From a virus: DNA of 46,853 bases. The stretch lies in IMG/VR virus record IMGVR_UViG_3300017726_001530, positions 1-46,853 of that record; one strand, 5' to 3'. A model generated the notes under the pieces. That model saw only the letters and a list, made by a program, of their open reading frames with translations. It was not told the DNA's origin and ran no database searches. Of this stretch, positions 2,807 to 34,444 are shown in pieces; the first letter of the stretch is position 1, and the number at the start of each line of letters is the position of its first letter. Both the position numbers and the translations under genes were made by a program.

Positions 2807-4477
2807 ATGGCTGGATTTAAAATTAACACATTTAGTGGTCTTAACAAAAAGGTGTCTCCAAGACTCCTGCCTGATACTGTTGCCCAAGATACACAAAACT
2901 CATTCTTAGATTCTGGCAGACTAGAAGGGTTAAAAAGCGATACAAATCATTCTTCAGAACCAAGCTCTCATCCGGCATCACATATAGATGCAAACACCAG
3001 AACAGTATTTCAGATCACTAGCTCTAACTGGTTAACATTTACAGGCGATGTTGATATTATAAAAAGCCCGATAAAAGAAGACCCACAGAATAGATTTTAT
3101 TTTACACAAAACGGAGTTGATCCTAAGTATGGACCAAGAAGCACACTAGTCAATGGCTCAGGTCCTTATCCAGCATCTTCATTTATATTGGGTTTACCAA
3201 CCCCAGCAGCATTTACATCAGCACCTAGTGTCAACAATGGTACAGCAGATGCAGGTGCAGCAGTATCTTCAAGGGCATATATTTATACTGAGATCACTGC
3301 CTTCGGGGAAGAAGGACCACCGTCAGCAGTTACATCTAATGAAATTGTTGATGCCTCAAATGGAGCTACAGTTACATTAGCTTTGCCAGCAGCGAGTAGT
3401 GGAAATTATAATATAGCGAAAAGAAGAATATATAGAACTGATGTTAATGGTGTCTTTAGATTTGTAAAAGATGTGGCTGGGACATCAGCAGGAAACATAA
3501 CAGAAGATGTCCTAGACGATTTGCTCGGAGAAGAAATAGAGTCCGCAGACAACCTAGCACCACCAGACACAACTTCATCAGATCATCCTGATGGACCTAT
3601 GATTGGCATAACTTCTCTGCCAAATGGTATTACAGCAGGCTTCTCAGGCAATACTTTGCTATTTAGTGAGGCTTACCTACCGCACTCATATCCACTTGCT
3701 AACCAACTAACAACCAAAGATGACATAGTTGCTATAGCTTCAATAGCTTCTGGTTTACTAGTAACAACCAAAGGAAAACCTCTTATGGCATCAGGCACTG
3801 ATCCAAGTGCTATTGCTATAGTGGAGATTGATGCTAACTTGCCAAATGCCAATAAAAAATCATTAGTTGATATGGGTGAATATGCTATCTATTCCTCTCC
3901 AGATGGTTTGGTTTTAGCATCTGCATCAGGAATCCAACTAATTACACAACAGATATTTACCAGAGATCAGTGGCAAGAATATTATCCAGAGAATATTGAA
4001 GGTTATGAGTACGAAGGCAAATACATAGGATTTACTTATGATGGTTCTAACAATAATACCAAGAAGGGATTTATTTTTGATCCAAGAGGCGGGGCTAATG
4101 CCTTTGTTAATCTAGATTTTTATGCACATGCAGGTTACAACGATAGAGAAAATGATATTTTATATTTAGTTATAGATGGAGTTCTAAAAACATTCTCTAA
4201 CAATGCAACACGAAGAGCATACACTTGGAAGTCAAAACAATTTTTTTCAAACAGACCTCTATCTCCCGGTGTAGCAAAAGTAGATGCAGATTCTTATAAC
4301 AGCTTAACCTTTAAACTTTTTGCAGATGGAACTCTTAAACATACACAAACAGTTGCCAATGGTGATGTATTTAGATTACCGGGTGGCTATAGAGCAAAAG
4401 AGTTTGAGGTCCAGTTGGAGGGTACAGATACCATAAACGAAGTTTGTGTTTATGAAAGTGCACGGGAGATTACCTAG
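2807..4477 (+). CDS. Putative tail structural (nozzle or propeller-like) protein
   Basis: About 556 residues from the ATG at 2807; the frame is open from a GTG at 2786, but MAGFKINTFSGLNKKVSPRL is the typical beginning of this family. The NKKVSPRLLPDTVAQDTQN region resembles the N-terminus of phage tail proteins usually annotated only as structural. Residues about 150-230 look like a fibronectin III-type domain (YTEITAFGEEGPPSAV). The rest is beta-rich, consistent with a propeller or nozzle. It overlaps the preceding gene and abuts the following GTG start. The exact place in the tail is inference. Confidence 0.65.
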   Translation: MAGFKINTFSGLNKKVSPRLLPDTVAQDTQNSFLDSGRLEGLKSDTNHSSEPSSHPASHIDANTRTVFQITSSNWLTFTGDVDIIKSPIKEDPQNRFYFTQNGVDPKYGPRSTLVNGSGPYPASSFILGLPTPAAFTSAPSVNNGTADAGAAVSSRAYIYTEITAFGEEGPPSAVTSNEIVDASNGATVTLALPAASSGNYNIAKRRIYRTDVNGVFRFVKDVAGTSAGNITEDVLDDLLGEEIESADNLAPPDTTSSDHPDGPMIGITSLPNGITAGFSGNTLLFSEAYLPHSYPLANQLTTKDDIVAIASIASGLLVTTKGKPLMASGTDPSAIAIVEIDANLPNANKKSLVDMGEYAIYSSPDGLVLASASGIQLITQQIFTRDQWQEYYPENIEGYEYEGKYIGFTYDGSNNNTKKGFIFDPRGGANAFVNLDFYAHAGYNDRENDILYLVIDGVLKTFSNNATRRAYTWKSKQFFSNRPLSPGVAKVDADSYNSLTFKLFADGTLKHTQTVANGDVFRLPGGYRAKEFEVQLEGTDTINEVCVYESAREIT

Positions 4478-5754
4478 TGGCAAATCAGTTACTTAACAAA
4501 AAAAGAAAAAGACAAGGAGCTAAAGGAACATTCCCTGTACCTAAAGATTTTAGCCCAGAAGGTAAAAGATTTGCTCAACATATAATAGACAACATACAGC
4601 AGCTCACCGGGGAAAAGGGAAATGTTTTAGACAAAGCAGTAACCTTCAATGATTTAATTGCATCTGGTCTAGCTAAAAAAAATACTGTAACAGTAAGCTC
4701 AGGATCAGCTGGTGCTGGTTTCTTGGGAACCATAGATCAAGGAGTTGACTCTGCAAGCATTCCAACAGGAGTAACTGCTTCAGGTGCTTTTCAAAACATT
4801 GTAGTTTCTTTTAATAGACCTCTTTATGCAGGTCATTCACATACAGAGGTTTGGGTAAACAACTCTGATAACTTTGCTACCAAAGTTTTCTTAGGGCAAA
4901 CATCTTCTACTATCTTTAATCACAGAACAGGAAATGGAGTAACTAAATATTATTGGGTTAGGCATGTTAATAAAAATGGAATAGCCGGATCATTTCAAGA
5001 TGATAATGGTGTTTTTGCTTCTACTGTAACTGTTGGCACAACTGACATAACTAATTTAGCTGTAACAAGTGCAAAGATACAAGACCTAGCTGTTGATAAA
5101 CTGACAGGCTCTTTTGCAACTTTTGCTTCTACTGTCACTGGTAACTTAGATGTAACTAATCTAACTGGAACTTTTGCCAACCTAGAAAATGTAGTTACAG
5201 GAGAACTTTCAGCAGATTCTATAAAAATAGACAATGTCACAATAGACACAGATGGCAGCGGTAATCTAATAATAAAATCAAATGGTGTTAATCAAGGTCA
5301 ACTTGCTACTAAAGCTGCAGGTGCTTTTAAAACATTTGCCAGAGGATCAGTAACAATTGGTGCTTCTGGAGAAGGTGGTTCTTATGTAGAAGTAATAAGC
5401 TTTGGTACTTCTGGTGGTGGAAACCAGTCTTCTTTTGTTGCAGGAGAGGCAGGAGTTTATTCAGCATTTTATTCTGGTAACTTGGCTGATCCTGATGAAA
5501 ACATAGCAGGAGATGATGGAGCAGACATATTAATGCAAGTCTATAGTAATACTAATAGCACCATGAACACTTCAAAGACTATGAGACTTTATGCAGAAAG
5601 AGGTATGGGTTTTACGGTTGCAACTGTTTTCACAGCAGCAAAAGATGAATCATTTCAAGTAAGAGTTTTTGTTAAAGAGAATAATGGTTTAACTAACAAT
5701 GCTTTTGTTGATAATAATTTTTTACAAGTTATGAGGATAACTAAGGGACAATAA
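4477..5754 (+). CDS. Putative tail tip or fibre-attachment protein
   Basis: A 425-residue protein with a GTG start overlapping the stop of the preceding gene by one base. The N-terminus is basic (NKKRKRQGAKG). A fibronectin-like central part contains HTEVWVNNSDNF and YYWVRHVNKNGIAGSF, the pattern of domains in lambda J-type tail tip proteins. It is followed by a region with repeated FATFASTVTG and FANLENVVTG units and a beta-rich C-terminus that may form a tip. Acting as tail tip or adaptor for fibres is an inference from domain style and position. Confidence 0.6.
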   Translation: MANQLLNKKRKRQGAKGTFPVPKDFSPEGKRFAQHIIDNIQQLTGEKGNVLDKAVTFNDLIASGLAKKNTVTVSSGSAGAGFLGTIDQGVDSASIPTGVTASGAFQNIVVSFNRPLYAGHSHTEVWVNNSDNFATKVFLGQTSSTIFNHRTGNGVTKYYWVRHVNKNGIAGSFQDDNGVFASTVTVGTTDITNLAVTSAKIQDLAVDKLTGSFATFASTVTGNLDVTNLTGTFANLENVVTGELSADSIKIDNVTIDTDGSGNLIIKSNGVNQGQLATKAAGAFKTFARGSVTIGASGEGGSYVEVISFGTSGGGNQSSFVAGEAGVYSAFYSGNLADPDENIAGDDGADILMQVYSNTNSTMNTSKTMRLYAERGMGFTVATVFTAAKDESFQVRVFVKENNGLTNNAFVDNNFLQVMRITKGQ

Positions 5755-6041
5755 TGAGAAAGTTTAGATTAAGAACCGGCACATTTATGCAGGATTTAAG
5801 AAAACAAAGAGACTTAGCTCTGGCTAGATGTGATTGGACCCAAGCTGTTGATAGCCCACTTTCAGATGAAGATAAAACTTTATGGGCTACATATAGACAG
5901 GCTCTCAGAGATTTTCCAGAAAATGTAGGGACATATTCTGAAGAAGATGATGTTATAAATTTTCCTAACCCACCCGGCTATGCTGGTGATCAACCGATGC
6001 CAGATATTAGTATACCAACACCTACTCCTGAACCAGAGTAA
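5754..6041 (+). CDS. Phage tail assembly chaperone-like protein
   Basis: A 95-residue protein. Residues about 14-58 have the family pattern RDLALARCDWTQ, then DSPLSDEDKTLWATYRQALRDFP, which matches the Phage_tail_APC (tail assembly chaperone) family well. The C-terminus is proline-rich and acidic (PDISIPTPTPEPE). It starts one base inside the stop of the preceding gene (TAATGA). Proteins of this family accompany fibre or tail-tip genes and are thought to aid their assembly. Confidence 0.75.
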   Translation: MRKFRLRTGTFMQDLRKQRDLALARCDWTQAVDSPLSDEDKTLWATYRQALRDFPENVGTYSEEDDVINFPNPPGYAGDQPMPDISIPTPTPEPE

Positions 6042-6082
6042 ATTTTTTGATACATTATGCAAAAAATGGTATCTTACAAACA

Positions 6083-6487
6083 ATGCTAACTAAAGTAGAT
6101 GTAAGGGTTTACTGGGATTTAATAGCTCAGGGTATTTGGGAAATAAAAAATACTTCCAACCCGGACTGGAAACCAGAAGACATTTATGCAGCACTACTTA
6201 ATAATGTAGCAGAGTTGTATATTGATATAGACGAAGAACCTTGTGAAAGTTTTATTATTTTACAAGAAAAGCCTAATATTTTTATGCCAACTAAATCATT
6301 TTTGATTTGGATTGCGTATGATAAAAGAGGCGGAGCAGCTAGTAAGTATATGTCTCATATAGAGCAAATGGCAAAAGAACGAGGTTGTAATAAAATTGAG
6401 TTCTGGACACCGCATAAAAAACTAGCCAAAGCGTTGGAATCAATAGACTATGAAACTAAACTATATGTAGTGGAGAAAAAAATATAA
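6083..6487 (+). CDS. GNAT-like (acetyltransferase fold) phage protein
   Basis: About 134 residues from the ATG at 6083; a TTG at 6047 would add 12 residues, and neither has a clear ribosome-binding site. The order WDLIAQGIWEI, a central beta strand pair, then YDKRGGAASKYMSHIEQMAKERGCNKIEFWTPH resembles the small GNAT-type proteins found beside structural genes of podoviruses, with the RGGAASKYM stretch where acetyl-CoA would bind. Substrate and catalytic activity are unknown. It overlaps the next start (TAATG). Confidence 0.55.
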   Translation: MLTKVDVRVYWDLIAQGIWEIKNTSNPDWKPEDIYAALLNNVAELYIDIDEEPCESFIILQEKPNIFMPTKSFLIWIAYDKRGGAASKYMSHIEQMAKERGCNKIEFWTPHKKLAKALESIDYETKLYVVEKKI

Positions 6488-7059
6488 TGTCATTCGGTGG
6501 AAGTGGATCAACAACAATAAAAGATACAGCATCACAAAAGGCTTTAGCCTCAATAGCTGCACGAAGATTTAATCTTTATCAACAGTACTATGTCCCATTA
6601 GAAAATCAATATATAAGTGATGTTTATAGTATGATGGATCAATCTGCATTCGATACTGTCTCAGGTTTCGTCAATGCAGCAACTCAACCACAATTTCAAG
6701 CAGCAGCAAAAAATATGCAGAGCATGGCATTCCAAAGAGGTATGGACCCTATGAGCGGTCAGTTTCAGGCTAGGTCAGAAGAAATGGCAAGAACACAGGC
6801 AAGAGGTCAATCAGATGCTTTAGCTCAGGGTTTATCATCACAAGTTGATAGATATTATCAAGGCATGCAAAATATTATTGCTATGGGTCAAGGTCAAGCA
6901 GGAGATGCTATACAGGGCTTAGGAGATATTGGTAAGCAAGCACAAGGAATAGCTGCGGCAAGAGCAAGATCAGCCTTAGCTGGAGACCTTTCTAGAAGCC
7001 AAACTATAGGAACAGCAATTGGCACAGGCATAGGTTTGTCTAGTATGGGAGATAATTAA
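6487..7059 (+). CDS. Putative internal virion protein, small
   Basis: A 190-residue protein rich in Gln, Ala, Ser and Gly, predicted mainly helical (QPQFQAAAKNMQSMAFQRGM), ending in a glycine-rich hydrophobic stretch (IGTAIGTGIGLSSMG). It starts at the overlap TAATG of the previous gene and is followed by another such overlap. Small Ala/Gln-rich helical proteins ahead of giant internal proteins are typical of ejected virion proteins of podoviruses. That role is inferred from composition and order, not from a recognised domain. Confidence 0.5.
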   Translation: MSFGGSGSTTIKDTASQKALASIAARRFNLYQQYYVPLENQYISDVYSMMDQSAFDTVSGFVNAATQPQFQAAAKNMQSMAFQRGMDPMSGQFQARSEEMARTQARGQSDALAQGLSSQVDRYYQGMQNIIAMGQGQAGDAIQGLGDIGKQAQGIAAARARSALAGDLSRSQTIGTAIGTGIGLSSMGDN

Positions 7060-7511
7060 TGGCATTCTACACACAAGGCGGAGGTTTGTTCCAAGGTCAA
7101 AATACTTATGTCAACCCATATAGACAAGGTGATCAATCTGCTCAAGATACTTTAGCTGATCTTTACGAAGCTGAGTTTCAGGACTATTTAAATAGATTCT
7201 TTCCAGTAGAACAAGACTTAATAGAGCAAATGACCACAGGTTTTGGAGAATTGCAACAAGAAGAAATAGGTAGAGCTCAAAGAGCAGTAGCTAGACAATA
7301 CTCAAATGTTAGAGGACAAGAAGGCAGAAGAATGTCTGGTTTTGGATTAGCATTAAGACCAGAATCAGGTAACGATTTTAGAAGATCAGAAACTTCAGCT
7401 TTAGTTGCAGCTAGAAATTTTGCTAGAATAAGATCAGAACAAAGAAGATCAGATGTACTTTCCGGTGGTCTTGGAAGTGCAATGAATGAAAGGAGTGCAT
7501 TAGGTGGCTAA
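7059..7511 (+). CDS. Putative internal virion protein, Gln/Arg-rich
   Basis: A 150-residue, helix-rich protein beginning MAFYTQGGGLFQGQ, with many Gln and Arg residues (GRAQRAVARQYSNVRGQEGRRM). It overlaps both neighbours by a few bases and so is translated in tight series with them. No recognised domain. Its composition is much like that of its upstream neighbour, and I infer a virion-internal or ejected protein from the gene order. Confidence 0.5.
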   Translation: MAFYTQGGGLFQGQNTYVNPYRQGDQSAQDTLADLYEAEFQDYLNRFFPVEQDLIEQMTTGFGELQQEEIGRAQRAVARQYSNVRGQEGRRMSGFGLALRPESGNDFRRSETSALVAARNFARIRSEQRRSDVLSGGLGSAMNERSALGG

Positions 7512-7752
7512 AGGATTATTAGGAGTTGGAGCTCTACAAAAAAAACAAGCTATGTCAGGATTGACTCAAGCAGCTGGATTAGAAGCACAACAAGATATTG
7601 CTGAAGAACAACTTTATCAACAAAGAAAAGCAGCTCAAGCCCAAACAACAGGGACTATGACTGCGGTTGGAGCTTATGTTGGGGCTGGTACTGCTGTTGG
7701 CGGTGTTCCCGGTGCAGTTATTGGGTTTTTAATAGGGAAGTTATTCGGATGA
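7504..7752 (+). CDS. Small glycine-zipper membrane-active protein
   Basis: An 82-residue protein from a GTG at 7504, overlapping the preceding gene by 8 bases. The first half is helical and Gln-rich. The last 30 residues form a glycine-zipper hydrophobic segment (GAYVGAGTAVGGVPGAVIGF), ending in LIGKLFG. Such segments insert into membranes, so a role in forming a DNA-ejection conduit is possible. This is inference; no family was recognised. Confidence 0.5.
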   Translation: MAKGLLGVGALQKKQAMSGLTQAAGLEAQQDIAEEQLYQQRKAAQAQTTGTMTAVGAYVGAGTAVGGVPGAVIGFLIGKLFG

Positions 7753-17574: not shown

Positions 17575-18375
17575 CTAAGATATCAAACTATTACTGTTCT
17601 CACAAGCATCGTTTAAATAGTCTTGTGATAGGTGAGCATACCTATTAACTATATTAAAGTCTGACCAACCACCAAGATGTTGCAAAGTATGTAATGGTGT
17701 ACCATTCATAACATGATGAGTAGCCCAAGTGTGCCTTATGTCATGCCATCTAAAACCTTCTAGCCCACATTTTTTTAATGCATTATACCAGCCAGTGTTT
17801 GATGCTTTCCTTATTCTTCTGCCAGCGTAAGTGAATACATATGGACTGGTTTTTTCTATACTGTTTAGTAACTGTTTGCATTTAGAGTTTAATGGAATAC
17901 ATAAGGGTTTTCCGTTTTTAGTCTCTTCAGCAGGTATGGCTATTTGGTTTTCTTTAACATTTTCCCATTGCAGGCTAAAGCAGTTGGACATCCTCACCCC
18001 AGTCAAAAGAGAGAAGATAAAAGGTTGCACGAGGTGTTTCGGTAAGGTCGAAACCAACCTATCAATATCTTCTTTAGAGAAATACTTATGGGAGTTGCCT
18101 TTTTCCCTAACTCTCTTAACAATTGGCTTGGAGTCCAACCAGCCTAGCTCTTCATAAGCATACATAAGTATTGCCCTGAAGTAACTTAAATAACGATTCA
18201 CTGTGCCGGGTTTTCCTTTTATGCCTGACCTAGCTTTCGCTATGTGTTCTTTTGTAATCTTGTTTATATCCCAACCACTAAATAAGCCATCGAAATATTT
18301 CTTATAGGTATAGTCGTTCTTACCTATATTTTTGAATCTGTAATATTCTTTAATTGTGTTTTCCCAAGTCTTCAT
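17575..18375 (-). CDS. int: Tyrosine recombinase (phage integrase)
   Basis: A 266-residue integrase. Catalytic set visible: R128 in LLTGVRMSN, K153 in the beta-hairpin TKNGKP, H211-D-I-R214, H233 in LQHLGGW and nucleophile Y246 in NRYAHLS. A SAM-like core-binding domain occupies residues 1-90; there is no separate arm-binding domain, which makes it short compared with lambda Int. It catalyses site-specific integration and, with a partner, excision. It converges on the giant structural gene, with 93 bases between them. The repeat-bearing gap upstream (18376-18540) is a candidate site of action. Confidence 0.9.
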   Translation of the reverse strand: MKTWENTIKEYYRFKNIGKNDYTYKKYFDGLFSGWDINKITKEHIAKARSGIKGKPGTVNRYLSYFRAILMYAYEELGWLDSKPIVKRVREKGNSHKYFSKEDIDRLVSTLPKHLVQPFIFSLLTGVRMSNCFSLQWENVKENQIAIPAEETKNGKPLCIPLNSKCKQLLNSIEKTSPYVFTYAGRRIRKASNTGWYNALKKCGLEGFRWHDIRHTWATHHVMNGTPLHTLQHLGGWSDFNIVNRYAHLSQDYLNDACENSNSLIS

Positions 18376-29830: not shown

Positions 29831-29870
29831 AAAAAAAAAGAGCCATGCATTCAATGAACACACAGCTCTT
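29831..29870 (-). terminator. Rho-independent terminator of the leftward operon
   Basis: On the minus strand AAGAGCTGTG pairs with CATGGCTCTT (10 bp with two G-U pairs, loop of 13) and is followed by nine T. It lies about 10 bases after the stop of the NrdR-like gene and ends the ribozyme-bearing operon. Confidence 0.88.
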
Positions 29871-29879
29871 ATTCCGTCT

Positions 29880-30071
29880 TTATTTATCTTCATTTTCTTG
29901 ACTTCTCCAAGTAATTTTGCCTCCTACAGCAAAACGAGTTGAATCAACCTCAAATGTAGAAAAAGACTTACCGCATTTTTTACAAACCCTTCTCCGCCAA
30001 ATAGTTTTACCATCTTCAAATGGTCTACTATCTTTTACAGAAGTTTTTGACTTACCACATGAACAAATCAC
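29880..30071 (-). CDS. NrdR-like zinc-ribbon protein
   Basis: A 63-residue protein: C3-S-C5-G, then VKDSR, then [16 protein letters not shown] (C30, C33). This is the zinc-ribbon signature of NrdR (CPxC, VxDSR, RRRxCxxCxxRFTTxE), the repressor of ribonucleotide reductase genes, but the ATP-cone domain is absent. It may bind DNA or compete with host NrdR to raise dNTP supply; that is inference. The first motif is CSC rather than CPxC. Last gene of the operon, abutting the terminator. Confidence 0.7.
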
Positions 30072-30490
30072 TAGTCCTCCTTATCAGATTCATTTTCATA
30101 CTTTTTTATTGCTTTAATATCATCGAACATTGGAACACCAGTATCAGACATCCATTCTCTTAACTCTTCAATGAAGACCTTAGAAAAATGGTCATAGTTA
30201 TCAGACACTAATTCACGGACATGTTGATATAGATGCTCGGGTAATTTTTCATCATAACCATTTAAAATATTAGGCTCTGATTTGTCACCACATTCTAATT
30301 GAGTAATCCTAAACATTAACCCATAAAACTTGTCGGGCAGTCCATGAACATATCCATTGCTGTGATACTTGAACCAGTAGTCCAACCAGTCCTTGTATTC
30401 TTGCTCCCCATAATGTCCATTGAGATAGCAACGAACCACCACCCCAAGTTGCGATTTATTGAGAGCCATTTCTCTAAAACTATTTGTCAT
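30071..30490 (-). CDS. Hypothetical protein, leftward operon
   Basis: A 139-residue acidic protein. The ATG at 30490 has GGGGGTGAG six bases upstream. Predicted helical; [20 protein letters not shown] and [18 protein letters not shown] are the more distinctive stretches. It overlaps both neighbours slightly, so it is part of a three- to four-gene translationally linked segment after the last ribozyme. No family recognised. Confidence 0.65.
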
Positions 30491-30999
30491 AATGATCTCA
30501 CCCCCTTAAGACCTCTTTGGAATTTGTCTTGAAACATAGACCTAATTGAGTACATCTGATGATAACCCCATAGCTGGTTATATTCTTTTGTAATGTTAAG
30601 ATCAAGCTTAATTTCTTCCATGCCTTCTCCTCTTATATAATCATAAGCCTCTTCATCTTCAAAGGGGATGTTGCGACATACAAATTCAAAATGATTAGAA
30701 TTTTTATCTGGAAAATAAATTACTACAGCTTCCATTAATCCGAAATTCATTCTGTATGTCCTTGTGCTTTGATTAGCTGCCAAAGAAACACCGAAACCAT
30801 TTTTAAACCTGTAAAGATATTGAATATGATCACAGCTTTTGTCACAACCTTCCTGAATAAAATCGAAAGCCACCTCTAAATCTTTAGCTGGTCTCCAACA
30901 TTCTCTCCAAGGAACAATAACTGATCTATTTGCAGAATAATTTTTACAAGTTTCGTATTTCGTTTTTTGAGTTAAAATAGTTTTTCCTTCTCTATGCAT
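30487..30999 (-). CDS. Hypothetical protein, leftward operon
   Basis: A 170-residue protein with a strong ribosome-binding site (GGGAGGTGAG) just before the ATG at 30999. It has aromatic and cysteine-containing sequence (IVPWRECWRPAKDLEVAFDF; NHFEFVCRNIPFEDEEAYDY). No signal, membrane span or known motif. The start touches the preceding stop and the end overlaps the next start. Confidence 0.65.
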   Translation of the reverse strand: MHREGKTILTQKTKYETCKNYSANRSVIVPWRECWRPAKDLEVAFDFIQEGCDKSCDHIQYLYRFKNGFGVSLAANQSTRTYRMNFGLMEAVVIYFPDKNSNHFEFVCRNIPFEDEEAYDYIRGEGMEEIKLDLNITKEYNQLWGYHQMYSIRSMFQDKFQRGLKGVRSL

Positions 31000-31259
31000 T
31001 ACTCACCTCCCATTATTGCTAAACTTCTAAGGTGCTTTTGATTAGCACAATAAAAATCAAAAGAATTTTTAATAGCAGGATCATAATTGAAACCTTGTGT
31101 TGCAAAATTATCTTTTACTTTGCCTTTAAGCAAGTCTAGATAAAGTTGATTTACGAACAAGACGAAATCTGTGTTAGAGATATCATCCGGCATTGTTGAT
31201 GGCTGATAGCCATAAAGTTTTACCCATTGGGTAGTTTTATTTATAAGATTACTATTCAT
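30999..31259 (-). CDS. Hypothetical protein downstream of hammerhead 2
   Basis: An 86-residue protein, first gene after the type I hammerhead at 31298-31391. Its leader contains ATAGGAAAATT immediately before the ATG, closely similar to the leader after the other type I ribozyme. Sequence is helical (SNTDFVLFVNQLYLDLLKGK). No family recognised. Confidence 0.6.
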   Translation of the reverse strand: MNSNLINKTTQWVKLYGYQPSTMPDDISNTDFVLFVNQLYLDLLKGKVKDNFATQGFNYDPAIKNSFDFYCANQKHLRSLAIMGGE

Positions 31260-31282
31260 AATTTTCCTATAAGTTTATGTGT

Positions 31283-31296
31283 GAGTCACCCGACTC
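31283..31296 (-). other. GGGU-loop hairpin next to hammerhead 2
   Basis: RNA GAGUC-GGGU-GACUC, one A after stem I of hammerhead 2. After cleavage it would stand six bases from the new 5' end. The counterpart beside hammerhead 1 has the same loop and different stem bases. Confidence 0.7.
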
Positions 31297-31297
31297 T

Positions 31298-31391
31298 GCA
31301 CTAGACCAAGGAACCAAATTAGTATCGATGTGTGATAGTTAATAAAAAAATGGCTCCAAGGTTTCGGTTAATAAAACCTCATCAGTAGTGC
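31298..31391 (-). ncRNA. Hammerhead ribozyme 2, type I
   Basis: Minus-strand RNA. Stem I GCACUA (31391-31386) pairs with UAGUGC (31303-31298). Core CUGAUGA is 31385-31379. Stem II is GGUU/AACC with loop UUAUU. GAAA is 31365-31362. Stem III, closed by A-U, pairs CC, GGAGCCA (31357-31351) with UGGUUCC and GG, with a two-by-two U internal loop and a long AU-rich loop. Cleavage is predicted after the GUC triplet, between 31304 and 31303. Ends lie in stem I, so the topology is type I. The G of the upstream TAG stop is the first base of stem I. The covariation-like differences from hammerhead 1 support the fold. Confidence 0.85.
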
Positions 31392-31708
31392 TAACCTTCT
31401 AGTATCCTTTGCTCGACACTAGCTGCAATCACAGCTTTATCTACTATGGGTTCAGTGATTTTCTCACACTGATCCCACAAGCTTTTATCTGCTAAAGAAA
31501 TACATTTAGGAAAGTATTTGGATACAAATTTAGTATCGTTATTTATTCCCCCATTGTTGTAGAGGTCATAGTATGCATTGTTAATCATCCTAAATTTTTC
31601 AAGTTTTGGATTATTTTTAGCATCTTCAACTTCACCAGTAAATGGGATAAGTTTTTCAAGTTGTTCGGCAAGTTTTTGATACCTGCCTTTGTTAGACCAG
31701 TAAGTCAT
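31391..31708 (-). CDS. Hypothetical protein ending at hammerhead 2
   Basis: A 105-residue protein; AAAGGAGG lies just before its ATG at 31708. Helical and charged (YQKLAEQLEKLIPFTGEVED). The final G of its TAG stop is the first paired base of hammerhead 2 stem I, so cleavage would leave this gene's message ending in the ribozyme. Overlaps the upstream gene by four bases. No family recognised. Confidence 0.65.
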   Translation of the reverse strand: MTYWSNKGRYQKLAEQLEKLIPFTGEVEDAKNNPKLEKFRMINNAYYDLYNNGGINNDTKFVSKYFPKCISLADKSLWDQCEKITEPIVDKAVIAASVEQRILEG

Positions 31709-31890
31709 AAAACCTCCTTTTGTACTATCAAGCCTTCGTTGATTAACTGCATTGCAGTTCTACCAAACCAGCCTTGAAGTTGCCAAGCTAAACCAGTATC
31801 AACTAGATGCTGCCATGCTTGTAGATACTGTTCCTTAGAATCAGATTCAATGAATCCCTCTGCGATTCCTATTGCATTGAAGTTATTCAT
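31705..31890 (-). CDS. Conserved small phage protein (DUF7417-like)
   Basis: About 61 residues from the ATG at 31890, which has GGGAGGTG five bases upstream and overlaps the previous stop (TAATG). YLQAWQHLVDTGLAWQLQGW followed by FGRTAMQLINEGLI resembles a small, very widespread phage protein family (LIDSGxVWxLQGxYGRxAxxLIxxGxI), tentatively DUF7417. Function unknown. Confidence 0.7.
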   Translation of the reverse strand: MNNFNAIGIAEGFIESDSKEQYLQAWQHLVDTGLAWQLQGWFGRTAMQLINEGLIVQKEVL

Positions 31891-32102
31891 TAGCACACCT
31901 CCCTTTCATGTCCATAGGTTTCAAAGTCTTCTTTAAAATAGACATTAGTTATATTTGGTCTTGTGCCTTTGTGATATCCGTAAGGGTCATACCAAACAGA
32001 GCCACAGGGCTTGTTTTTAAGTTCATCTACTTTGTCCAATACTAAGTCTCTTTGATCCTCAGTATCGCATTTGATAACAATATCGTAAGTTTCATTATTC
32101 AT
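31890..32102 (-). CDS. Small protein downstream of hammerhead 1
   Basis: About 70 residues from the ATG at 32102, chosen over 32114 because AATGAGAAAAATT before it matches the leader of the gene after the other type I ribozyme. It has a ferredoxin-like strand-helix start (ETYDIVIKCDTEDQRDLVLD). First gene after hammerhead 1. No family recognised. Confidence 0.65.
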   Translation of the reverse strand: MNNETYDIVIKCDTEDQRDLVLDKVDELKNKPCGSVWYDPYGYHKGTRPNITNVYFKEDFETYGHEREVC

Positions 32103-32126
32103 AATTTTTCTCATTAAGTTTTATGC

Positions 32127-32140
32127 GGAGCACCCGCTCC
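32127..32140 (-). other. GGGU-loop hairpin next to hammerhead 1
   Basis: RNA GGAGC-GGGU-GCUCC, one A after stem I of hammerhead 1. Same position and loop as beside hammerhead 2 with a differently composed stem, which suggests that the structure is kept. Confidence 0.7.
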
Positions 32141-32141
32141 T

Positions 32142-32204
32142 GCACTAGACCTCTCTCTTCGGGGAAGAGAAAGGTTTCGACCAATCAGGTCTCATCAGTA
32201 GTGC
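32142..32204 (-). ncRNA. Hammerhead ribozyme 1, type I
   Basis: Minus-strand RNA. Stem I GCACUA (32204-32199) with UAGUGC (32147-32142), perfect. Core CUGAUGA 32198-32192. Stem II GACC/GGUC with loop UGAUU. GAAA 32178-32175. Stem III, after the A-U closing pair, has 11 pairs (32174-32164 with 32160-32150), one of them G-U, with loop CCC. Cleavage predicted after GUC, between 32148 and 32147. All invariant core positions are present. The upstream gene's last codons and its UGA stop lie within stem I, the core and loop II, so sequence serves both protein and ribozyme. Confidence 0.93.
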
Positions 32205-32415
32205 TGTTAGCAACTTCATTGAAATGCTCAAGTAAATCCATCCTGACATCAGCAAAAAAGTTTACAGACATATCGTAGTGTCTGCCCTTTCCGAATTTTG
32301 CAAACAACACCGAAAGGTGAGATGTAAGTTCGGCAAAGCCATCGGAGTTAAGACTGAGCTGGCTATCAATAATGCCATCATCGTCTTCGTAATGGTCAAA
32401 ATATTCATTGCTCAT
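32185..32415 (-). CDS. Hypothetical protein whose 3' end encodes hammerhead 1
   Basis: A 76-residue acidic protein (MSNEYFDHYEDDDG; ELTSHLSVLFAKFGKGRHYD). Its final codons, for NSTTDET, and stop form stem I, the CUGAUGA core and part of stem-loop II of the hammerhead. Ribosomes terminating there could interfere with folding or cleavage. AAGGAGG precedes its ATG. No family recognised. Confidence 0.65.
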   Translation of the reverse strand: MSNEYFDHYEDDDGIIDSQLSLNSDGFAELTSHLSVLFAKFGKGRHYDMSVNFFADVRMDLLEHFNEVANSTTDET

Positions 32416-32843
32416 GACACCTCCTTTTTCAGCTTTTCAAGTTGCTTCTGCTGGTGAGGGGTTTGCCCTCTCTGCCAAGCTCCGTAGTAGTCTTGAGCTT
32501 CAGTAAAGTAATCACCCCAGTATGAATCATTGGCTTGCTTTTGAGCAACACCCCAGAAGTAATCAACGAACCAATCGTTTATCCCTTCTTTGCACTCTTT
32601 CAAGGTGTAACCAGAACCAACCTCATCAATAACAAAATAATCATTTATGATGAAGTCAGCAGTGTAGTACTTCTCACCAAAATTAATGCTTGGTTTGATA
32701 ACTATTTTTAGGCTCATGCCCTTGATATCTTCACCACCCATTTTTTCTCTTTGCTCCTTGCTCCAGTCAAGGTTAGAAAACTTTCTGTCAATTAAAGCTT
32801 CGTAATTGCCTTCATTCGTTCTTTCAAATTTAAAACTAAACAT
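32412..32843 (-). CDS. Hypothetical protein, leftward operon
   Basis: About 143 residues from the ATG at 32843, which overlaps the stop of the membrane-protein gene (TAATG) and has AGAGGG upstream; the frame extends to 32942 only inside that gene. Mixed strand and helix protein with SLKIVIKPSINFGEKYYTAD and an aromatic stretch (NDWFVDYFWGVAQKQANDSY), ending in a charged helix. No family recognised. Confidence 0.6.
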   Translation of the reverse strand: MFSFKFERTNEGNYEALIDRKFSNLDWSKEQREKMGGEDIKGMSLKIVIKPSINFGEKYYTADFIINDYFVIDEVGSGYTLKECKEGINDWFVDYFWGVAQKQANDSYWGDYFTEAQDYYGAWQRGQTPHQQKQLEKLKKEVS

Positions 32844-33121
32844 TACTTCTGCCCTCTTCTTAGCTTGCCAATAAAGACAAACATTGGGATGAAGACCAGA
32901 CCAATTACACAACCAATAGCTGTACCAAATGCCAAGTCCCATGAACCTGTACCTGCACCGCCCATGAAGTCTGAGAGCATGTTGCCAATGCCTGCACCAT
33001 ATACAACTCCTAAGCCGCTTTGAAACTGCTTAGGCAAATATTTTTCTACTTCGTAACCTGTCATAGCTCCTAAGATCATGACACCGTTATCAATTATTCC
33101 GAATACAATAAATTCAAACAT
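32843..33121 (-). CDS. Small two-span membrane protein downstream of hammerhead 3
   Basis: A 92-residue protein with hydrophobic segments FIVFGIIDNGVMILGAMTG and AIGCVIGLVFIPMFVFIG around a Gly-rich middle (YGAGIGNMLSDFMGG). The pattern NGxxIxGAxxG, GNxxSDxxGG, GCxxGLxxIP recurs in small membrane proteins of phages and marine contigs. Its start follows the leader AACGAGGAAAAAATT after hammerhead 3. Function unknown. Confidence 0.7.
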   Translation of the reverse strand: MFEFIVFGIIDNGVMILGAMTGYEVEKYLPKQFQSGLGVVYGAGIGNMLSDFMGGAGTGSWDLAFGTAIGCVIGLVFIPMFVFIGKLRRGQK

Positions 33122-33142
33122 AATTTTTTCCTCGTTAAGTTA

Positions 33143-33192
33143 ACTGTTTCGTTCTTTGAACTCATCAGGACAGACCAATATCTGTCGACAGT
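33143..33192 (-). ncRNA. Hammerhead ribozyme 3, type III
   Basis: Minus-strand RNA. Stem III ACUGU (33192-33188) with ACAGU (33147-33143). Cleavage predicted after GUC, between 33187 and 33186. Stem I GACAGA/UCUGUC with loop UAUUGG. Core CUGAUGA 33168-33162. Stem II GUUC/GAAC with loop AAA. GAAA 33150-33147. Ends lie in stem III, so the topology is type III. Every invariant core base is present. It fills the gap between the zinc-finger and membrane-protein genes. Confidence 0.93.
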
Positions 33193-33197
33193 AAGGA

Positions 33198-33214
33198 GAG
33201 GGTTATTAACCCTC
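33198..33214 (-). other. Hairpin holding a stop codon in its loop
   Basis: RNA GAGGGUU-AAU-AACCCUC, seven perfect pairs. The UAA stop of the upstream gene spans the stem-loop boundary (33208-33206). It would become the 3' terminal structure of the upstream message after hammerhead 3 cleaves. Confidence 0.75.
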
Positions 33215-33433
33215 ATCCTTGTAGTGTGGCTTGCAATCGTAGCAAGCATTTGTGTAACCCTGATTAGGCAGATGGTCATCTATTTCACGGTAATGAACAA
33301 CACCACCCTCAAGGTATGTGATAGACCAAGCAGTGCCACATGGATGAACATCAGCATCTCTTTGCTTTTCAAAGTCTTGCACAGTATTAGCATTAAAGTC
33401 TTTGTTGCAGTATTCGCAGTTTAAAGTTTTCAT
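33206..33433 (-). CDS. Small zinc-finger-like protein between hammerheads 3 and 4
   Basis: A 75-residue protein with C6-E-Y-C9 near the start and C64-Y-D-C67 near the end, the latter in YTNACYDCKPHYKDEG; the four cysteines could bind one zinc ion. The middle is beta-type (CGTAWSITYLEGGVVHYREI). It is the only gene between two ribozymes and so would become a single-gene message. No family recognised. Confidence 0.65.
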   Translation of the reverse strand: MKTLNCEYCNKDFNANTVQDFEKQRDADVHPCGTAWSITYLEGGVVHYREIDDHLPNQGYTNACYDCKPHYKDEG

Positions 33434-33451
33434 AATATTTCTCGTTAGTTA

Positions 33452-33499
33452 GCTGTTTCGCTCTCTGAGCTCATCAGGGCAAGCCTACTTGCCGACAGC
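33452..33499 (-). ncRNA. Hammerhead ribozyme 4, type III
   Basis: Minus-strand RNA. Stem III GCUGU (33499-33495) with ACAGC (33456-33452). Cleavage predicted after GUC, between 33494 and 33493. Stem I GGCAAG/CUUGCC with loop UAGG. Core CUGAUGA 33477-33471. Stem II GCUC/GAGC with loop AGA. GAAA 33459-33456. Compared with hammerhead 3, stems I, II and III differ in bases but keep pairing. Followed by the leader AACGAGAAATATT before the zinc-finger gene. Confidence 0.95.
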
Positions 33500-33500
33500 A

Positions 33501-33516
33501 GGCTCCCGAAGGAGCC
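33501..33516 (-). other. UUCG-loop hairpin upstream of hammerhead 4
   Basis: GGCUCC-UUCG-GGAGCC, six perfect pairs with an extra-stable UUCG loop and no U tract, one base before stem III of hammerhead 4. After cleavage it would cap the 3' end of the 213-residue gene's message. Confidence 0.85.
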
Positions 33517-33535
33517 AACTCGGGGAAAGAAAAGG

Positions 33536-34177
33536 TTAGTCCATAATCCCATCATCGTATTCCCATGAGATACCTTGAGTGTCAAGATAGTCCATAACAA
33601 CCTTAGCAGATTCGTACTTACTAACATTCCCTTGTACAGGTGGTGGATTGATCCTACCAACACTTGAATCAATGTGAGCACCAAGAACACAAGTACCTTG
33701 ATCCTTACTGCCAAGCTTGATCCAGTTGTCGTACCACATTTTCTGAGCCTTCTCGATGTACTCAGAATTTGACAACCTGTCATCGTACTCAAAACCAGAG
33801 ATATCGAAGTTGTTTATTTTCACAGTCTGACCACGAGTGTTTCTATTGAACTCGCCATCTCTCCCAGCATGAATCGGTACCAAGAACCAATAGTCAGTTC
33901 CATCGAAAAGAACATCACCTGATGATGTTGATCTCAAGCCCCATTGATTACCATCTTGGTCAGCCTCAAGCTCTACATGAACCTGAACTCTGTCATCGTA
34001 CTGCTCATTAACTTCTTCTACTCCATCCCATATAAAGGTAGCTGGCTTAGACCAACTGCCATCAATGTTCTGAGACAAGCTAAAAGCTTCAGTTAGATTA
34101 TCAACATTAATAGTTGCTACTTTCGTATAACCTTTTCGGTTATCGCTAAATTCGTTTGCATGATAAATTGTAAACAT
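33536..34177 (-). CDS. First protein of the ribozyme operon, unknown function
   Basis: A 213-residue acidic protein (MFTIYHANEFSDNRKGYTKV; YWFLVPIHAGRDGEFNRNTR; CVLGAHIDSSVGRINPPPVQ). No membrane span, signal or known motif. It lies between hammerheads 5 and 4 and would become a single-gene message. The leader before its ATG (AACGAGGAAAAATT) is nearly identical to that of the membrane-protein gene. Same-phase coding up to the UAG stop about 20 bases before the UUCG hairpin. Confidence 0.7.
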   Translation of the reverse strand: MFTIYHANEFSDNRKGYTKVATINVDNLTEAFSLSQNIDGSWSKPATFIWDGVEEVNEQYDDRVQVHVELEADQDGNQWGLRSTSSGDVLFDGTDYWFLVPIHAGRDGEFNRNTRGQTVKINNFDISGFEYDDRLSNSEYIEKAQKMWYDNWIKLGSKDQGTCVLGAHIDSSVGRINPPPVQGNVSKYESAKVVMDYLDTQGISWEYDDGIMD

Positions 34178-34196
34178 AATTTTTCCTCGTTAAGTT

Positions 34197-34249
34197 AACT
34201 GTTTCATCCTTTTGGAATCTTCAGAGAGGATACTCATCCTCTTACAGTC
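34197..34249 (-). ncRNA. Hammerhead ribozyme 5, type III, degenerate candidate
   Basis: Minus-strand RNA. Stem III GACUGU (34249-34244) with ACAGUU (34202-34197), one G-U pair. Cleavage predicted after GUA, between 34243 and 34242. Stem I AGAGGAU/AUCCUCU with loop GAGU, seven perfect pairs. Core CUGAAGA (34224-34218); position 7 is variable in hammerheads, so A is allowed. Stem II UCC/GGA with loop AAAA, but the pair next to the core, usually G-C, is U-U. GAAA 34205-34202. It may therefore be slow or inactive. It lies in the operon's 5' leader. Confidence 0.65.
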
Positions 34250-34415
34250 CGGCTTGCGTCTTAACCCAGTCCAAGCATCGTGATCTTCCTTAATCAGTCA
34301 AAGCTGCGGGGGTTTCTGCCTCAAGCGGTTGTCTGTTGAGGCTGAGTTAAAGTGCCTGAAACCAAGGCACCATAAGGGTTTCGTTAGATTTCTGTCTTTG
34401 TTTTTCCTCCTTTTA
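34250..34415 (-). other. Structured 5' leader of the ribozyme operon
   Basis: No gene is visible in this stretch. It holds two perfect hairpins, GCCTCAA/TTGAGGC (34318-34342) and GTGCCT/AGGCAC (34352-34370), and a strong ribosome-binding sequence AAAAGGAGG (34414-34406, minus strand) with no start codon at a usable distance; the nearest ATG opens only eight codons. The orphan site may be a remnant of a lost gene or may bind ribosomes to protect the message. Confidence 0.5.
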
Positions 34416-34416
34416 A

Positions 34417-34444
34417 GTTATACATGCCTATTATCTAATCACAA
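34417..34444 (-). promoter_or_regulatory. Candidate leftward promoter of the ribozyme operon
   Basis: Minus strand TTGTGA (34444-34439) and TATAAC (34422-34417), 16 bases apart, with TG directly before the -10 hexamer. An alternative is TTGCAA (34461-34456) with TAGATA (34437-34432). Either would start a transcript carrying all five hammerheads. Confidence 0.5.

Follow-up and report, generated by a model that had tools for sequence, protein, structure and literature searches.

INTRODUCTION

Clusters of hammerhead ribozymes in phage DNA have been described before. According to Perreault et al. (2011), prophage genomes carry multiple hammerheads on either side of single genes or of small groups of genes, tandem and triple arrangements cleave in vitro, and one of these (a triple array) also cleaves in E. 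coli; the authors proposed that long phage RNA is processed into single-gene or operon-length mRNAs (PMC3088659). The reason for the presence of hammerheads in phages has been open since that time, and the clustering of ribozymes in bacteria has likewise been called a phenomenon of unknown cause (PMC10085705, 2023). Two further systems are close in organization, namely the early transcript of phage T7, which has five RNase III sites and is cut into mono- and dicistronic messages (PMC4858673), and the synthetic insulator RiboJ, in which a hammerhead and a hairpin precede the ribosome-binding site and raise expression (PMC6206723). Here, we analyze the complete IMG/VR virus record IMGVR_UViG_3300017726_001530 (46,853 bases, hereafter "the window"), in which twelve small genes form a leftward operon with five hammerhead motifs, one in its leader and one in each of its four intergenic gaps.

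We consider co-transcriptional self-cleavage of the operon RNA into a leader and five mRNAs to be the best explanation for this arrangement, with a probability of roughly 0.8. A first-pass annotation of the window had regarded multiple self-cutting in one phage operon as new; this is not supported, as the 2011 study already reports multiple prophage hammerheads together with the same processing proposal (PMC3088659).

RESULTS AND DISCUSSION

Five Hammerhead Motifs in the Gaps and Leader of One Operon

All five motifs lie on the minus strand, in the direction in which the operon (genes g1 to g12) is read. The leader element (34196..34250) is of type III, with a GUA site and a predicted cut at 34243/34242, and is matched by the Rfam model Hammerhead_3 (RF00008) with an E-value of 3.3e-6, where this and all other RF00008 E-values are per genome, for this 46,853-base genome. 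Two further type III elements, both with a GUC site, follow at 33450..33501 (predicted cut 33494/33493; RF00008 E 5.8e-8; stems I/II/III of 6/4/5 bp in our motif descriptor) and at 33141..33194 (predicted cut 33187/33186; RF00008 E 3.5e-9; 7/4/5 bp). The remaining two are type I elements with GUC sites: that at 32142..32204 (predicted cut 32148/32147; 6/4/12 bp), the 5′ half of which overlaps the end of g5, is matched by the RAGATH-1 model at 36.4 bits (32225-32143), and that at 31298..31391 (predicted cut 31304/31303; RF00008 E 7.8e-4 at 31400-31356) has a long stem III, its stem I starting on the final base of the g8 stop codon. Both were also recovered, as the only matches in the window, by a covariance model (R1) that we trained on 21 phage hammerheads, of which 20 come from contigs other than the window, with 61.2 bits (E 3e-14) for 32204-32142, which is within the training set, and 49.5 bits (E 4.3e-11) for 31391-31298, which is outside it. 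The core CUGANGA, stem II and GAAA are found in all five elements (in the leader element with a U.U first pair in stem II), as are paired stems I and III and a correctly placed NUH site, which is GUC in four cases and GUA in the leader. Loops I and II, between which a tertiary contact would allow fast cutting at low magnesium, are present as well.

The four gaps measure 102, 84, 82 and 131 nt, and the other seven gene junctions of the operon are overlaps of 1 or 4 nt, exactly as the first-pass annotation had described them. Its five hammerheads are all present where it had placed them, and the 5′-OH bases that we predict from the sequence (34242, 33493, 33186, 32147 and 31303) are those that it had named. 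The Rfam covariance search that it had proposed as a check gave significant RF00008 matches at four sites (E 3.5e-9 to 7.8e-4) and a RAGATH-1 match at the fifth, all of them falling short of the gathering score. A search of the window at the Rfam gathering threshold accordingly returned no match, such that default Rfam annotation would miss all five elements; we note that this score is a threshold set by curators, rather than a mechanistic feature. In the case of RAGATH-1, the 36.4 bits obtained in the window compare with a gathering score of 56.3.

Conservation and Covariation across Related Phages

A descriptor comprising the core, stems I to III and the NUH site was run on both strands of the window and of 64 relatives identified through their terminase (714,896 bases in total; individual contigs or loci compared are labeled with L-numbers). 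It gave 67 matches, every one of them on the operon strand (one of the 67, in L028, is a type I element mis-typed as type III), compared with two matches over five rounds of dinucleotide shuffling (0.4 expected). A core-only search (CTGANGA N8-16 CGAAA), in which no stems are required, yielded 52 distinct matches, again confined to the operon strand, and type I stems I and III accompanied 47 of the 52, as opposed to 2 of 1020 controls with a shuffled 3′ flank. Model R1 found at least one match in all 25 terminase relatives with about 5 kb or more of stored DNA upstream of the terminase, strongly in 23 and weakly in L063 and L025 (E 0.006-0.009), amounting to 57 matches at 26 loci when the shorter L030 is counted, all on the operon strand.

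Among 38 distinct aligned type I sequences, 99.3% of cells are paired, with 184 double changes, whereas controls with slid partners are 30-37% paired; changes on both sides occur in 12 of the 15 pairs, and the covariation score is 0.78, compared with 0.21 for shuffles and at most 0.15 for slid partners. Fitting the sequences to the model biases the alignment in its favor; the core-only search is free of that bias. The compensatory changes extend to all stems, which requires selection on RNA folding. The ribozymes extend from the stop codon of the preceding gene to a point 20-45 nt ahead of the next start. Judged from these sequences, the comparison across relatives settles that the five hammerheads are real. 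Two variants were observed along the way: L050, L052, L066 (TTC site) and L067 (ATC site) have A-U or U-A rather than C-G at 15.2-16.2, and in the 7208 region of L047 stem III is duplicated beside a second GAAAC, resembling a copy of two adjacent ribozymes that has slipped or recombined.

Ribozymes Persist while Genes Are Exchanged

The leader element is retained in L011, L094 and L081, and hence in four phages including the window, with its U.U pair in each. In L011, its stem II carries a compensated change from UCC/GGA to UGC/GCA (C-G to G-C), and its free N7 base varies over the four phages (A, U, C and U). Taken together, these features speak for a genuine variant of the leader element that is under selection, and this element has been kept even as the gene directly after it in the window differs from that in the other three. 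The element of the 32148 type precedes g6 in the window and the g1 homologue in L094 and L081, and L094 has six hammerheads within less than 2.6 kb. Conversely, the g1 homologues that were found directly (L001-L006) are without hammerheads, so that passage along with g1 does not by itself account for the ribozymes. The whole operon is a mosaic; the genes between ribozymes turn over while the ribozymes persist.

This pattern bears on a rival reading, in which the ribozymes would be leftovers of mobile elements, decayed or occasional, that no longer serve the operon. In its favor, neither the leader ribozyme nor stem III at 31304 is ideal, and the scores lie under the Rfam gathering cut-off; the strand bias, the presence in every one of the 25 relatives, the covariation and the retention during replacement of flanking genes all speak against it, and we consider it extremely improbable.

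A role as borders for the exchange of gene cassettes, with the short repeated cores serving homologous recombination and cleavage being secondary, would draw on chimeric ribozymes in L011 and L081. There, the 100 nt before the core correspond to the 33494 element of the window (98% and 90%), while from the core onward the sequence corresponds to the 33187-type element of L094 (92% over 99 nt and 97% over 120 nt), and a gene has been gained or lost at the junction, with one missing between the two parts. As a general rule, recombination at ribozymes is not supported, since over the family neighbors (at 40-90% identity) are retained across 27% of ribozyme junctions, compared with 20% of overlapping ones, and the ribozymes are thus no special break points. 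The compensatory changes in all stems, which require selection on RNA folding, also speak against this explanation, and we hold it to be very unlikely.

Hairpins at the Predicted Cut Ends

To describe the predicted ends, the 45 nt before or after each cut were folded and expressed as a z score, for which the background is -0.3. Before type I cuts, the mean z is -2.7 (73 sites), since a type I cut leaves stem III on the 3′ terminus of the upstream product. The 31304 site gives a z of +0.1 before the cut; its stem III exceeds the 45-nt frame, and the whole element folds with stem III. A type III cut by itself leaves no 3′ hairpin, but both interior type III sites of the window have one just upstream. 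At the 3′ end of the g1 message, this is GGCUCC-UUCG-GGAGCC (33501..33516, minus strand; -14.1 kcal/mol, z -2.0), in place of which L094 has an unrelated hairpin, and 5′ of the 33187 cut it is GAGGGUU-AAU-AACCCUC (33198..33214, minus strand; -15.6 kcal/mol, z -3.5), with the g2 stop codon in its loop. Leader sites, where the upstream product is not a message, show no hairpin before the cut (z +0.2 and +1.3).

On the downstream side, a type III cut would leave stem I as the 5′ hairpin of the next piece, and ribozymes of the GCACUA type are followed by a separate hairpin with a changing stem. The latter are represented in the window by GGAGC-GGGU-GCUCC, before the g6 ribosome-binding site (32127..32140, minus strand; -13.1 kcal/mol and z -3.3 for the 45 nt after the cut), and GAGUC-GGGU-GACUC, before g9 (31283..31296, minus strand; -8.5 kcal/mol, z -2.1), each near the predicted new 5′ end; their loops are identical and their stems different.

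Operon Layout and Genome Context

Overlaps of 1 or 4 nt are the usual sign of translational coupling, and each predicted message therefore corresponds to one coupled block, i.e., g1, g2, g3-g5, g6-g8 or g9-g12. The leader and five messages put forward by the first-pass annotation thus coincide with coupled gene blocks, and would be released if the ribozymes cut as predicted. All blocks are on the minus strand. The first message would encode g1 (33536..34177), a 213-residue protein with homologues in L094/L081 (76%) and no Pfam or PHROG match, and the second g2 (33206..33433), a 75-residue cysteine-rich, zinc-finger-like protein with CxxC pairs in its translation, for which family searches were without a match. 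Next is a three-gene block (32185..33121) comprising g3 (33121-32843), g4 (32843-32412) and g5 (32415-32185), in which every junction overlaps; g3 encodes a small membrane-like protein with a weak Pfam TMEM65 match just under the cut-off and homologues in L015 (82%). Every junction also overlaps in the g6-g8 block (31391..32102), where g7 matches phrog_3908, of unknown function (E 1.8e-12). The terminal block, g9-g12 (29880..31259), ends in g12 (29880-30071), which encodes a lone zinc ribbon like the N-terminal domain of NrdR (Pfam PF22811, E 5.2e-15; 83% identical in L011), and is followed by a strong intrinsic terminator with a 15-pair stem and a T run (29838..29870, minus strand). Overall, Pfam and PHROG searches gave almost no functions for the proteins of the operon.

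The operon is placed between the replication genes and the terminase of a marine-type, podovirus-like genome that encodes a terminase, portal, major head protein, internal virion protein, DnaB-like helicase and Erf-/RecE-like recombination proteins. The portal is about 31% identical to those of Pelagibacter/Roseobacter phages, indicating distant kinship, and no similarity of the window to isolated phages was found at the DNA level. An integrase gene is also present (17575-18375, minus strand; phrog_1, E 5e-52), so that the phage may be temperate and should not be assumed to be purely lytic.

Upstream of the first ribozyme, the leader (34250-34420, minus strand) has several strong predicted hairpins and would be freed as a separate small RNA. 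We also observed a motif like CTTTTTCTTTTCCCCG (TTYCCCC) that is strand-biased in the window, with 9 copies on the operon strand and 1 on the other (about 2.6 expected), and in L014 and L015 (8 and 0, respectively), and that is present in L063 as well. It lies mostly outside the hammerheads, with some copies located in loops of stem III and ahead of the 33494 cut.

Distribution beyond the Lineage

Two pattern scans of IMG/VR for hammerheads of these stem I families gave 31 matches in one and at least 120 in the other, in well over a hundred stretches. The most extensive array is found in an unrelated phage, L183 (record G024, 32,467 bases), where ten type I hammerheads over 4.8 kb of one operon stand ahead of nearly every gene (positions 2808-6441; ten R1 matches at 2808-7574). 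Its leaders are A-rich (AAACAAAACAAA) and without a clear Shine-Dalgarno sequence, a composition that suggests a Bacteroidota-type host. Several hammerheads per contig were also counted in L076 (six, by model), L049 (five), L080 (four) and L082 (four). RAGATH-1 matches many relatives with E-values of 1e-3 to 1e-6, its gathering cut-off being reached by none of those searched. Two stem I patterns gave zero and one matches in bacterial genomes, and thus yielded no cultured strain with a conveniently usable prophage; the distantly related isolates CRP-7 and HTVC033P gave no hammerhead match, and the exact pattern of the type III element of the window had no match among viral contigs.

Predicted Processing of the Operon RNA

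Taking these observations together, we propose that transcription would begin at a promoter located upstream of ~34250 and proceed leftward, as one RNA, as far as the terminator at 29838, and that each hammerhead would fold as it emerges and cut 3′ of its GUC (or GUA), without the need for an enzyme. The products would be a short leader and messages for g1, g2, g3-g5, g6-g8 and g9-g12, each a coupled block served by a separate ribosome-binding site that lies 20-45 nt past the ribozyme. At an interior cut, the upstream message would end in a stable hairpin with a 2′,3′-cyclic phosphate, and the downstream message would begin with a 5′-OH, mostly on or near a hairpin. 5′-OH ends resist attack by RNase E of the kind that depends on a 5′-monophosphate. 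Both new ends may be shielded from exonucleases and from 5′-end-dependent decay, giving each block separate stability and translation, and the likely benefit would be that small early or accessory genes are detached from each other and from the leader. While the motifs, with their strand, placement, covariation and conservation, and the hairpins beside them are established from the DNA, we infer cleavage in the cell, the chemistry of the ends and the effect on stability.

Several points weigh against this reading. In the leader hammerhead, stem II opens with U.U where G-C is usual. The predicted fold at the 31304 site depends on a stem III with a UU/UU internal loop (the counterpart of this stem in L011 is fully paired), and when a longer stretch around 33494 is folded, the predicted lowest-energy structure is a competing one. 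No promoter was recognized upstream of 34250; a sigma-70 scan gave fewer matches than shuffled sequence and is uninformative. Finally, a 5′ hairpin had to be rejected as a universal part of the arrangement, as it is weak or absent in the families with stem I GACUAA and of the L183 type.

Cutting could instead be conditional, with the ribozymes acting as regulated switches (aptazyme-like, or controlled by a protein or salt), for instance between lysogeny and induction. The integrase and the long, stably folding leader upstream of the first ribozyme would fit such control; no conserved aptamer-like domain was seen joined to the ribozymes, however, and among relatives their stem loops differ freely, both in length and in sequence, making this unlikely. 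It is also quite unlikely that the cut pieces mainly become circular RNAs, with their ends joined by self-ligation of a re-formed hammerhead or by RtcB, in the manner of retrozymes and viroids. In the window, the type I pair does share its stem I strands, with 6/6 pairing across g6-g8, as is the case in many relatives, and Perreault et al. mention circular products as a possibility, although they did not detect them (PMC3088659). Duplication alone explains the shared stem I, successive stem I strands in L183 and L080 are often mismatched (3-5 of 6), and the g3-g5 piece, being bounded by one type III and one type I element, cannot re-form a ribozyme.

Self-cleavage into a leader and five mRNAs may in turn be one instance of a general, selected expression program of several environmental phage lineages, in which each translationally independent block has a ribozyme boundary made up of a 3′ hairpin, the cut and a 5′ end with a ribosome-binding site (up to ten per operon), RNase III-type processing is replaced, and new genes slot in as insulated messages. 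We advance this wider proposal tentatively, as one with slightly less than even odds.

Comparison with Known Systems

The window resembles the prophages of Perreault et al. in its clustered, same-strand hammerheads at the gene borders of one transcript. The largest example worked through in the text of that study is the triple (PMC3088659), compared with five of two topologies in the window, six in L094 and ten in L183, although the size of the largest earlier array is uncertain. A further difference is that the layout here is kept lineage-wide, with hairpins at the cut ends. The additions over earlier work are therefore the number of ribozymes, the mixed types, their lineage-wide persistence during gene turnover, and the layout of hairpin, cut and hairpin. 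That a lineage keeps hammerheads at its free gene borders while the genes change is pertinent to why phages have them at all, and the lineage-wide layout makes the mRNA-processing idea directly testable. Of the described ribozyme families, RAGATH-1 (RF03152) is similar in being of type I, and 32225-32143 is matched with all stems; it differs in that the window scores below the family gathering score and the conserved upstream hairpin is not clearly present. Hammerhead arrays such as these are missed at default Rfam thresholds.

The T7 early transcript is likewise a polycistronic phage RNA with five cut sites (PMC4858673), but is cut by a host enzyme that leaves 5′-phosphate ends, whereas the RNA of the window would cut itself, leaving 5′-OH and 2′,3′-cyclic phosphate ends. 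At the level of the single boundary, the arrangement is like RiboJ, which has the same order of hammerhead, short hairpin and ribosome-binding site, and in which the cut removes the upstream leader and leaves a 5′ hairpin. RiboJ was designed from the plant satellite RNA sTRSV, whereas the phage version is natural and repeated within one operon; the lineage supplies naturally occurring ribozyme insulators against which RiboJ can be compared.

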